A program made the position numbers and the translations under genes. Shown in pieces: positions 26,406-30,444 of a stretch of 64,000 nt of DNA. Every line of letters begins with the position of its first letter. Positions within the stretch are counted from its first letter, which is position 1. The notes under the pieces are model-generated. The model searched no databases and was not told where the DNA came from. It saw nothing but the letters and a program-made list of their open reading frames with translations. The stretch is from Alphaproteobacteria bacterium (GTDB lineage: Bacteria; Pseudomonadota; Alphaproteobacteria; UBA6615), in contig SHWB01000001.1 of assembly GCA_009691025.1 (NCBI GenBank), positions 62,001 through 126,000 of the forward strand, given 5' to 3'.

Positions 26406-26681
26406 GTGGCGACCCCGGTCGACGATCGTGGCGGCATCGCCGGTATTAGGGCGTCGCCCCGGCTCCTGTGGCGACGCGCGAAGCCGGTCATATGGCGCGC
26501 CGTGCACTGGTCGGACCGCCAAATCCCGGCCGGCGTGCGGACGCTGGCCGGCCTGCCGCTGATCGTCGGTGGGGTGTTCAGCTTCCTGCCGGTCGCCGGG
26601 TTGTGGATGCTGCCCGTCGGCCTCGCCCTCATCGCGCCCGACATGCCTGCGCTGCGCCGGCGGTTGCTGTCATGGGTGTAA
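26406..26681 (+). CDS. Small membrane protein of unknown function
   Basis: The 91-residue protein has a basic N-terminal half (RLLWRRAKPVIWRAVHWS) and one hydrophobic hairpin or two short spans (LAGLPLIVGGVFSFLPVAGL, then MLPVGLALIAPDMPAL). It resembles the short PGPGW-type or transmembrane hypothetical proteins widely present in Alphaproteobacteria, but no function is known. It follows dodecin after 15 bases in the same direction. Confidence 0.6.
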   Translation: MATPVDDRGGIAGIRASPRLLWRRAKPVIWRAVHWSDRQIPAGVRTLAGLPLIVGGVFSFLPVAGLWMLPVGLALIAPDMPALRRRLLSWV

Positions 26682-26767
26682 CGCCATCATCCCGACCGGG
26701 ACGGAACGGTGTTGGACGGCAAGGTATCCGCGGGCGAGGATCCTCCGGGGAAGAAAGGGGAGAAGGC

Positions 26768-27468
26768 ATGCCTTGCACTGTGTTCCTCGCCGGGGCCGGC
26801 GGCGCGGTCGGCCGGCGGCTAGCGCCACTGCCCGTGGAGGCCGGCTACCGGGTGGTCGGCAGCACGCGATCGGCGGCGCGCATAGAGTCGCTGGCGGCGC
26901 TGGGAATCGAGGCCGTGCAGGTCGACGTCTTCGACGAGGCGGCTCTCGCCGCCGCGATGACGGCGGCGCGGCCGGAAATCGTCATCCACCAGCTCACGGA
27001 CCTGCCCTATGGCCTCGATCCGGCGCTGATGGAGGAAGGGCTGGTGCGCAATGCCCGCATCCGTGTCGATGGCACGCGCAACCTCGTCGCCGCGGCGCGG
27101 GCGGCCGGCGCGCGCCGCCTGATCGACCAGAGTATCGCCTGGCTGTATGCGCCCGGCCCCGAGCCGCACGGCGAGGACGACGCGCTCGACGCGGTAAGGC
27201 CGCCTCGGTCACGCTCTAAGGGGTGCTGGCGCTGGAGAGGCAAGTCCTGGAGGTGGCGCCGCTCGAGGGTATAGCGCTGCGCTATGGCATGTTCTATGGC
27301 CCGGGCACCGGCAGCGCGGAGCGGTAGGGCGGGCCGGCGCGCGTGCATGTCGATGCGGCGGCGCAGGCGGCGCTGCTGGCGATCGAGCGCGCGCGGCCTG
27401 GCGTCTACAACATCGCCGATCAGGGCGACTACTTGTCGTCGGAAAAGGCCCGCCGCGACGGCGAATGA
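26768..27468 (+). pseudogene. NAD-dependent epimerase/dehydratase (extended SDR), broken
   Basis: The gene starts well (AGAAGG before ATG 26768) and encodes VFLAGAGGAVGRRLAPL, a Rossmann motif of extended SDRs, then IVIHQLTDLPYGLDP and VDGTRNLVAAARAAG. A frameshift occurs near 27192. In the shifted frame the family sequence continues (LRYGMFYGPGTGSAER, HVDAAAQAALLAIE, GVYNIADQGDYLS) but is crossed by TAA at 27217 and TAG at 27325. Three lesions make loss of function very likely. The catalytic YxxxK is not recognisable. About 45 residues of the normal C-terminus may also be missing. Confidence 0.8.
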
Positions 27469-27523
27469 CGGGCCGAAAAGCGACACCCGGAGCCGCTGGC
27501 GCCGGGTGTCGTGCCAGTGACGC

Positions 27524-27997
27524 CTACTTCTTCTGCGACTGGTAAAAGTTGACCATCCGAACCACGTCGCGCGCGTCGATGCGGCCGAGCGGCCCGTCGC
27601 TGTAGCTGCTCGCCATCACCTTGTTCTCGGCGTTGAGGATGAACTCCGACGGCTGGATGATCTGCCGCCGTTCCTCCCACCACGATCCGAGTCGGTCGGC
27701 AATGTCACGCGTGACACCATAGCCGACCGGGAAGTTCAGCTCGTTGGCCACTTCCTGGGCCTTGTCGAGCTGGTCGACGCTGGCTGCGACGACCTTCACG
27801 TTCAATTTGTCGAATTCTGCCTTGCTCGATGCGAAGCCGCCCAACTGACGGCGACAATAGGGTCACCAGTGTCCACGGTAGAACAGGATCACCTTGTATC
27901 GGGCATCGAGGCCCTGCGGCAGGTTGAGCGTTCCGCCTCCGACGAGTTTCAGCGTCATGGAGGGGAACGCATCGCCTATACCGAGTTTTGTGGCCAT
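27524..27997 (-). CDS. Peroxiredoxin-like (AhpC/TSA) protein with in-frame TGA: candidate selenoprotein
   Basis: A single frame from ATG 27997 (GAGGAAAG just before it) to TAA 27524 is crossed by one TGA at 27863-27865. The 157-codon product is a thioredoxin-fold redoxin: FYRGHW-U-PYCRRQLGGF around the TGA, then VVAASVDQLDKAQEVANEL and VGYGVTRDIADRLG. TGA is codon 45 and replaces the first Cys of the CxxC redox motif (Cys48 is kept). Seven bases after the TGA a hairpin can form, stem GTCGCC/GGCGGC (one G-U pair) with an 8-base loop beginning GU, as in bacterial SECIS elements. The base after TGA is C, a leaky context. Prx-like selenoproteins with UxxC are known. The alternative is a nonsense mutation in a region that holds other dead genes. 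Confidence 0.65.
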
Positions 27998-28237
27998 GCT
28001 TTCCTCACGCGAACCAGCACCCTCGGTGGCCGACGGCCCCCTGTGGATACTTTTGGCAGTCTCGCGCAGGTCCGCCCGCGTCGGCAACCGGCCACTCTTG
28101 CGCCTGCGGAACAGAACCCGGCCGGTCATTCGCCGTTTCTCCAACTGGGTTGTGTGGTACGATCGCATCGTCGGCAGGCCTTCGCGTCGCGCCTGCCCGG
28201 CCGTGGCCCGGGCGCCGTCGACGGCGTTCGCCCGGTC

Positions 28238-28600
28238 GACCAGGCGGCGTATCACATGGCTCTCGCCGAAACTCGAATGCGGCTCGGCGCGGCACGCCTG
28301 GTCCTCGAGCGCGCCACCGCTGATCTAGACCGCCACATCGTCACCGGAACACCCATGCCGCTGGCGCTGCGCGCCCGCCAGCGTGTCTATTGTGCCTGGG
28401 CGGTCGGCGAATGCTCGGCGGTGTCGGCGCGGCTGCACTCGCTGTCGGGCGCCTCCGCCATCGCGCTGGGCAACATCATGCAGCGCGCCGCCGTGGATAC
28501 CGGCGCGGCCGCAATGCATGCCTTCCTCGAACTGCCCGGAACGCTGGAAATATACGGCCGTGCGTTGTTGGGACTGGACATGGGTGCCGCGTTCGTATGA
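28238..28600 (+). pseudogene. C-terminal fragment of an acyl-CoA-dehydrogenase-family protein
   Basis: The last 120 residues of an open frame resemble the C-terminal helical domain of acyl-CoA dehydrogenase/HsaA-type flavoproteins (LGAARLVLERATADLDRHI, HSLSGASAIALGNIMQRA, HAFLELPGTLEIYGRALLG). The N-terminal and flavin-binding parts are missing; the open frame continuing upstream to 27869 is antisense to the peroxiredoxin-like gene and not conserved-looking. A truncated remnant is the simplest reading. The 240 bases between it and the peroxiredoxin-like gene hold no convincing gene. Confidence 0.65.
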
Positions 28601-28636
28601 GTCGCGTCCCGGTACGCCGTAGTGGGCAGGGGAAGC

Positions 28637-29257
28637 ATGGATCGTTTGCTAGAAGGTTATCGCCAGTTTCGTGCCAGCGTCTGGCCGGAGGAGCGCAGCC
28701 GCTACGAGGCGATGGCGCGGCGCGGGCAGACGCCCGAGACGCTGGTGATCGCCTGCTCGGACTCGCGCGTCGATCCGGCGACGGTGTTTGGCGCGGTGCC
28801 TGGCGAATTGTTCTCGGTGCGCAACGTTGCCGGTCTCGTGCCGCGCTACCAGCCGGATGCGGGCTATCACGGCACCAGCGCGGCGCTGGAATATGGCGTG
28901 CGCGTGCTCAAGGTCGCGCGCATCGTCGTACTGGGGCATGCGCAGTGCGGCGGCATCCGGGCGATGGTCGAAGGGGCTCCGCAGGGTGCGCGCGACTTCG
29001 TCAAACCGTGGATGAAGATCGCCGAGCCGGTGCTCCGCGCGCAGCCATCCGGACCCGACTCGGCCGATCCGCTCACCTTTTACGAGAATGGGGTGGTGCG
29101 CCTGACGCTTGCCAACCTGATGAGCTTCCCGTGGATCGCCGAAGCGGTCATATCCGGCGGACTGGCCCTGCACGGCTTCCGCTTCGACATCCACACCGGC
29201 GTGCTGGCGGTTCTCGAAGGCGACAGCTTCGTTCCCGTGGCGTCCGCCAGTGGTTAG
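28637..29257 (+). CDS. Beta-class carbonic anhydrase
   Basis: The 206-residue protein has the complete zinc site of beta carbonic anhydrases: Cys40-Ser-Asp42-Ser-Arg44 and His101-x-x-Cys104 (GHAQCGG). The Asp/Arg dyad for substrate binding is within CSDSR. It interconverts CO2 and bicarbonate in the cytoplasm, supplying bicarbonate to carboxylases and to CarAB. ATG 28637 with GGGGAAG upstream gives the standard N-terminus (MDRLLEGYRQFR). Its stop overlaps the end of the convergent acyl-CoA dehydrogenase gene by 4 bases. Confidence 0.95.
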   Translation: MDRLLEGYRQFRASVWPEERSRYEAMARRGQTPETLVIACSDSRVDPATVFGAVPGELFSVRNVAGLVPRYQPDAGYHGTSAALEYGVRVLKVARIVVLGHAQCGGIRAMVEGAPQGARDFVKPWMKIAEPVLRAQPSGPDSADPLTFYENGVVRLTLANLMSFPWIAEAVISGGLALHGFRFDIHTGVLAVLEGDSFVPVASASG

Positions 29258-30444
29258 ACCAGCCGCGCATCCGGTTCGAGGCCCAGAAGATGCTGGCCGA
29301 TGAGCTGGAAAAAGGCGAGGCGGCCCTGCAATTGCTGTGTGACGGTGTTGGCGTCACGCAGGCGCCGTTCGAAAGGCTGGCTGGCGAAGACGGAAGTGGT
29401 GCCGGCGTGGTGGTAGACGGCGCCGGTGGCGTCCTTCGCCTCGTGGATCGCATGCGTCACGGCCATGCGGATAGTCATGCGGTGGTCGATCGTGAAGGCG
29501 TCGTTGCGCGCCACGTCGTCCCAGAGCCGGTGCGCGCTTTCCAGCACATAGGCGCGGGCAGCGGCGATGCGTGTCGCGGCGCGGCCGAAATCGAACTGGG
29601 CCACGCCGTCCTCGCGCAGCGTCGGCGCGCCGCCACGCGGCGATTTCTCGCGTGCCAGCGTGGCGAAGGCGTCCATCGCCCCGCGTGCGATGCCCAGCGC
29701 GATGCCGGCGAAGCCGCAGCCATAGACGCTCTGCGCCGGCAGGCGGTAGAGCGTGCCCTCGGCATAACGGGGCGTGTCGGACTCCGGCACGAGCGTGTAG
29801 TCCGGGGAGAACCCATGCGCTTCAGGCACGAACAGGTCGGTGACGGCGTAGCGGTCGCTGCCGGTGCCGCGCAGGCCGATGACGTCCCACACATCGGTCA
29901 GCGTCACATCGGCACGCGGGAACAGCAGGGTCCGTTCGCGCGGCGGCCCGTCCGGCGTGACGATCCGGCAGCGCCCGCCGAACCATGTCGCGTGCCGGCC
30001 GCCGCTGGCGAAGTTCCATACGCCGGTGACGCGATAGCCGCCCTCGACGGGAATCGCCTCGCCGCGCCCCGGACCCCAGGCAAGGACCGCGCGCGGATCG
30101 CCGAAGATTCGTCGTGCGGCAGCGGGGGCGAGATAGGCTGATGCCATCGAGCAGCCCGAAGCCTGGGCGAGGCACCAGGCAACGCTGGCGTCGGCGGCGG
30201 CCACAATCTCCATCACCGCGAACAGCGTGGCCGGATGCAGTTCCTCGCCGCCCAGCGCGCGCGGCAGCAACAGGCGTAACAGGCCGGCTGCGTGCAGGGC
30301 ATCGAGCAAATCGGCCGGCAATTCGCGCGCGGCATCGATGCGCGGCGCCGCCGCGGAGATCGCCGGCGCGAGGCTGCGCGCCCGCCCCACGATATCGGCA
30401 GCGCCGGGCGAGCGCGTTGGGCCGCCGGTATCGGGAGGGGTCAT
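29254..30444 (-). CDS. Acyl-CoA-dehydrogenase-family flavoprotein (group D monooxygenase-like)
   Basis: The 396-residue protein follows the acyl-CoA dehydrogenase plan: an N-terminal helical domain, a middle beta domain (VTGVWNFASGGRHATWFG) and a C-terminal four-helix domain (GAVYHHAGTTSVFASQPFER). The middle-domain words and the HHAGTTS segment are those of the subgroup that includes flavin-dependent monooxygenases such as HsaA and HpaB-like proteins, rather than true beta-oxidation enzymes. It may need a separate flavin reductase, not seen nearby. It is followed 13 bases upstream by the CocE-type hydrolase reading the same way, a likely two-gene operon. Confidence 0.85.
   Translation of the reverse strand: MTPPDTGGPTRSPGAADIVGRARSLAPAISAAAPRIDAARELPADLLDALHAAGLLRLLLPRALGGEELHPATLFAVMEIVAAADASVAWCLAQASGCSMASAYLAPAAARRIFGDPRAVLAWGPGRGEAIPVEGGYRVTGVWNFASGGRHATWFGGRCRIVTPDGPPRERTLLFPRADVTLTDVWDVIGLRGTGSDRYAVTDLFVPEAHGFSPDYTLVPESDTPRYAEGTLYRLPAQSVYGCGFAGIALGIARGAMDAFATLAREKSPRGGAPTLREDGVAQFDFGRAATRIAAARAYVLESAHRLWDDVARNDAFTIDHRMTIRMAVTHAIHEAKDATGAVYHHAGTTSVFASQPFERRLRDANTVTQQLQGRLAFFQLIGQHLLGLEPDARLV

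Follow-up and report, generated by a model that had tools for sequence, protein, structure and literature searches.

A predicted peroxiredoxin-like selenoprotein gene with a Sec-Pro-Tyr-Cys site, conserved in a mainly alphaproteobacterial clade

Peroxiredoxin-like (Prx-like) selenoproteins with a UxxC motif have been known since 2005, and the original prediction for the gene described here had placed them chiefly in marine and deltaproteobacterial data. The Sargasso Sea set contained 22 such sequences, under the name 'Prx-like protein' (PMC1088965), the GOS set contained 225 sequences of Prx-like 1, with PF00578 and UxxC (PMC2398784), and 'Prx-like thiol:disulfide oxidoreductase' is the published name of a family with the same domain and motif (PMC13188914). 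In culture, the published UxxC carriers are mostly Deltaproteobacteria and Clostridia, and in an early survey the Alphaproteobacteria had a single selenoprotein family, with FdhA (formate dehydrogenase) being the sole selenoprotein of the Sec-decoding members (PMC1794560). The clade to which the present gene belongs, in contrast, consists mainly of alphaproteobacterial MAGs, in which the gene is often linked to selAB. Judged by their descriptions, the published proteins and the one reported here have PF00578 and a UxxC motif with Sec in first place in common, and both have marine and aquatic relatives as well as Cys homologues.

The gene is found in the window, that is, the whole stretch of 64,000 nucleotides analysed here, and its features are collected in Table 1. 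Its reading frame of 157 codons is crossed by a single TGA, at codon 45, and contains zero other stops; translation from the ATG gives MATKLGIGDAFPSMTLKLVGGGTLNLPQGLDARYKVILFYRGHW-U-PYCRRQLGGF... and ends at TAG. The TGA occupies the first Cys position of a CxxC motif (YRGHW-U-PYC) and is followed by CCC in this gene and by CC in all clade members, and a GAGG lies six to nine bases before the start codon (...GCGTGAGGAAAGC-ATG). These observations agree with the original prediction, which had described one open frame with a single TGA at the first redox Cys, a ribosome site before the ATG and a C after the TGA. Our reading, held with high confidence on the strength of sequence comparison, is that the gene encodes a Prx-like selenoprotein with a Sec-Pro-Tyr-Cys site, in which UGA45 would be read by SelB with Sec-tRNA(Sec), and that the product is most likely a thiol:disulfide oxidoreductase or thiol-dependent reductase.

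Table 1. Positions in the window of the predicted selenoprotein gene and its signals
Feature	Position	Strand	Details
Prx-like (AhpC/TSA fold) selenoprotein CDS, predicted	27524..27997	minus	read from 27997 to 27524; 157 residues, Sec at 45, ATG start, TAG stop
In-frame TGA, predicted Sec codon (U45)	27863..27865	minus	first position of UxxC; clade conservation
TGT codon of Cys48, predicted resolving Cys of the UxxC pair	27854..27856	minus	invariant Cys in alignment
Shine-Dalgarno-like GAGG 5' of the ATG	28003..28006	minus	direct reading
Predicted bacterial SECIS apical hairpin	27836..27852	minus	arm GCCGUC 27852-27847, loop AGUUG 27846-27842, arm GGCGGC 27841-27836

With Cys placed at the TGA, the window protein matched AhpC-TSA (PF00578) with 79.7 bits (cut-off 26; E 2.3e-22). 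The structure model, built with relatives (pLDDT 94.7, pTM 0.91), had peroxiredoxins as its best fold matches (6q5v, TM 0.84), and its helix 46-57 represents the first active-site helix, with UxxC at its start. There is no conserved cysteine besides the UxxC pair, and this, together with the position of the motif, points to a catalytic cycle in which Sec45 and Cys48 may form a reversible selenenylsulfide, the protein acting as a thiol:disulfide oxidoreductase or thiol-dependent reductase. Aligned with peroxiredoxins, the protein has Cys48 at the place of the peroxidatic Cys (TxxC) and Sec45 at that of the conserved Thr, so that the canonical TxxC (or TxxU) site has been lost, the Thr position being held by Sec or Cys. 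The main functional rival within the selenoprotein reading would be a true peroxidase, in which a peroxidatic Cys48 is helped by Sec45. The rank of peroxiredoxins at the top of the fold matches and the alignment of Cys48 with the Cys of TxxC speak for such an enzyme, but replacement of the peroxiredoxin Thr by Sec yields UxxC as in thioredoxin-like reductases, and the published family bears the name of a thiol:disulfide oxidoreductase (PMC13188914); we therefore consider a peroxidase possible, though on the unlikely side. The sequence itself shows the frame, the place of the TGA and its conservation among relatives, the Sec machinery of the genome, the constraint on the RNA and the predicted fold, from which we infer insertion of Sec and the catalytic cycle with its putative substrate and electron donor.

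We found 29 homologues beyond the window gene, with 52-75% identity, each with a TGA at this codon as the only stop within the frame, and the TGA at codon 45 is thus present in 30/30 members of the clade (25 sequences after removal of near-duplicates). Distant homologues with the FYRGHW motif (FYRGHWCP(Y/F)C-type, at most 45% identity) carry TGC or TGT at that codon, and no close Cys form of the clade was found. In a maximum-likelihood tree, a branch with 97/95 support separates the Sec sequences from the rest, and a single switch between Sec and Cys, in either direction, suffices to explain this tree. These data bear directly on the possibility that the gene is a pseudogene, derived from a Cys-type redoxin in which mutational decay produced the TGA. 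The surroundings lend this some colour, since the adjoining epimerase and acyl-CoA dehydrogenase are split or fragmentary, but the same single TGA in an otherwise open frame recurs in the homologues down to 52% identity, a close Cys form was not found and the codons near the TGA are constrained, making decay very improbable. The alignment of Cys and TGA orthologues, proposed with the original prediction as a check, accordingly revealed a shared TGA free of the further frame damage in relatives that would have spoken for decay.

The original prediction had also regarded the neighbouring genes as decayed, which is accurate for some of them. The NAD-dependent epimerase gene (26468-27520, plus strand) appears to be split between two frames near 27274-27284, and a C-terminal fragment of an acyl-CoA dehydrogenase gene (28322-28600, plus strand) stands just before the gene for a beta-carbonic anhydrase (28622-29257). 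The latter is intact, as are the other large neighbours, and an intact acyl-CoA dehydrogenase gene of the same type as the fragment is located at 29254-30444 on the opposite strand to it.

A search for selA, selB, selC and selD had been suggested, their absence being named as an outcome that would count against a selenoprotein; all four were found in the same genome. Specifically, selA scored 572 bits (E 2.4e-172), selB 421 bits (E 1.6e-126) and selD, as the SelD part of an Ndh-SelD fusion, 294 bits (E 5.6e-88), and selC scored 71.8 bits as tRNA-Sec (cut-off 47) and was called by ARAGORN as a tRNA-SeC with anticodon tca. All four genes fit into a stretch of about 9 kb on contig C14, and the window belongs to contig C23; the source genome is an incomplete MAG (61%), with the gene and the sel cluster on different contigs. 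The order in the sel locus (L014:4070-13451, G000:C14) is selA-selB, a reverse-strand gene for a large subunit, which we named by eye as being of the aldehyde oxidase/xanthine dehydrogenase type, selC and the Ndh-SelD fusion. The selC gene, reported to be nested in selB in other Alphaproteobacteria, here lies outside selB. Because the genome possesses the full Sec machinery and 29 related genes share the codon, UGA45 is almost certainly read as selenocysteine.

Judging by the frame alone, it is formally possible that the TGA specifies a different amino acid (e.g. Trp, as in code 4) or is passed by generic read-through, giving a product without Sec. In this genome, however, TGA terminates normal genes (rpoD, RidA and others end with it), the Cys homologues align a redox Cys, not Trp, at the codon, and the genome has the Sec machinery, with which the gene co-occurs, leaving such a product only a very slight chance. 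An assembly or sequencing error turning TGC or TGT into TGA might be suspected, as other genes of this MAG show some apparent frameshifts, but the identical TGA occurs in independent MAGs from several projects, and we regard this explanation as negligible. Since the 29 homologues share the TGA and have no other stop, both decay and sequencing error are effectively excluded.

The published model of the bacterial SECIS requires an apical loop of 3-9 nt with a G in its first two positions, a stem of 4-16 bp, a spacing of 16-37 nt and a free energy no higher than -7.5 kcal/mol (PMC13188914). In the window, the hairpin GCCGUC-AGUUG-GGCGGC (6 bp, 5-nt loop, -9.1 kcal/mol), whose loop is separated from the UGA by 16 nt and has G at position 2 followed by U, lies within all of these limits. 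The conserved string gives a consensus hairpin GCCGNC-AGUUG-GNCGGY, and 92.5% of cells are paired in the GCCGUC/AGUUG/GGCGGC hairpin among 20 distinct sequences. Changes on both sides are seen in a single pair (A-U, G-U, U-A and U-G), which is unpaired in 9/20 sequences, and in relatives whose fifth position is unpaired the hairpin alone reaches only -4.7 to -5.8 kcal/mol. RNAalifold detected nearly no covariation, and the free energy of the region was no better than that of shuffled sequence (z = 0.26). A different hairpin had been proposed originally, GTCGCC/GGCGGC with an 8-nt loop starting with GU; it can form in the window, but it is largely specific to that sequence, with one of its pairs broken in 17/20 relatives, and 13 nt separate its loop from the UGA; we have rejected it as a conserved element.

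As the free energy could not be distinguished from that of shuffled sequences, the weight of the RNA evidence lies on codon constraint. When synonymous codons were shuffled within each gene, a test whose statistics ignore shared ancestry, the codon choice at R49, R50, Q51, L52 and G54 was far more uniform than expected from codon usage (P = 0.001 each), and P46, Y47 and C48 were constrained with P 0.01-0.04. Most codons elsewhere were unconstrained, with L38, V19 and S73 also at P = 0.001. AT-rich members use AGA or AGG at Arg41, yet have CGC CGT at 49-50, and the conserved codon string is not kept in the Cys homologues. We propose that SelB and Sec-tRNA(Sec) would decode UGA45 guided by this short hairpin, beginning 11 nt after the codon.

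The distribution of the gene is consistent with this reading. In its own family, comprising 24 genomes, the TGA gene is present in 16/20 genomes whose selA exceeds the cut-off, against 0/4 of the others (hypergeometric P 0.0066). Nine further genomes with the TGA form, from outside the family or from other collections, all have selA (9/9), which was thus found in 25/25 TGA-form genomes checked. In several genomes, e.g. G003, G005, G010, G015, G017, G018, G021 and G030, the gene is about 5-8 kb from selA on one contig. The Cys form is uninformative about loss of Sec, because 6/9 genomes carrying it likewise contain a selA that scores over the cut-off.

The same genome contains, outside the window (G000:C23:9065-10096, plus strand; locus L136:1183-2214), another gene interrupted in frame by a TGA, which also counts in favour of the Sec reading. 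It is ResA-like, with one in-frame TGA in the motif WESW-TGA-GCRND (WESW-U-GC), and matches NF041054 WAxxUGC_long with E 1.2e-63 and 215.6 bits, under the 300-bit cut-off; a relative in G023 also has one TGA. The NF041054 family of UGC-containing Prx-like/ResA-like WAxxUGC proteins likewise comprises thioredoxin-fold selenoproteins, but it differs from the window protein in its UGC motif and greater length and is a different family. In addition, genomes of relatives contain further frames that resemble peroxiredoxins, are about 220 aa long and include one TGA (G003:C11:5766-6029, G005:C2:1350911-1351123 and others), which are possibly Sec-type (TxxU) peroxiredoxins.

Among other curated families, PrxU (NF040737, TxxU) belongs to the same fold superfamily, but its Sec is at the peroxidatic position, three residues after that of the window protein, which scored 20 bits, the cut-off being 270. 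The SelL-related family (NF040769) has a Prx-like redox fold with weak similarity over residues 11-87, but the window protein is without UxxU, and its 27.1 bits compare with a cut-off of 120. The score for the curated AhpC family was far under the cut-off, and no NCBIfam model reaches its cut-off with the window protein. Standard annotation is therefore likely to stop at the UGA.

Taken by sequence, the gene is a well-supported candidate for a true selenoprotein gene, and its type is one already known, Prx-like with PF00578 and UxxC. What is new is that the gene belongs to a clean clade, mostly of alphaproteobacterial origin, that this clade is linked to selAB and that NCBIfam does not cover it. 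The original prediction had held that such a gene would be notable in an alphaproteobacterial background, but the gene is no isolated oddity, being shared by an entire clade of mainly alphaproteobacterial genomes. We suggest, tentatively and with the balance slightly against it, that this is a distinct Prx-like selenoprotein clade with no Cys form found, often near selA/selB and lacking an NCBIfam model, whose genes are probably cut at the UGA by annotation and which may rank among the main users of the Sec machinery in these lineages. Building a family model on the clade sequences would recover such mis-annotated genes of a peroxiredoxin-like UxxC selenoprotein that is conserved across many environmental Alphaproteobacteria.
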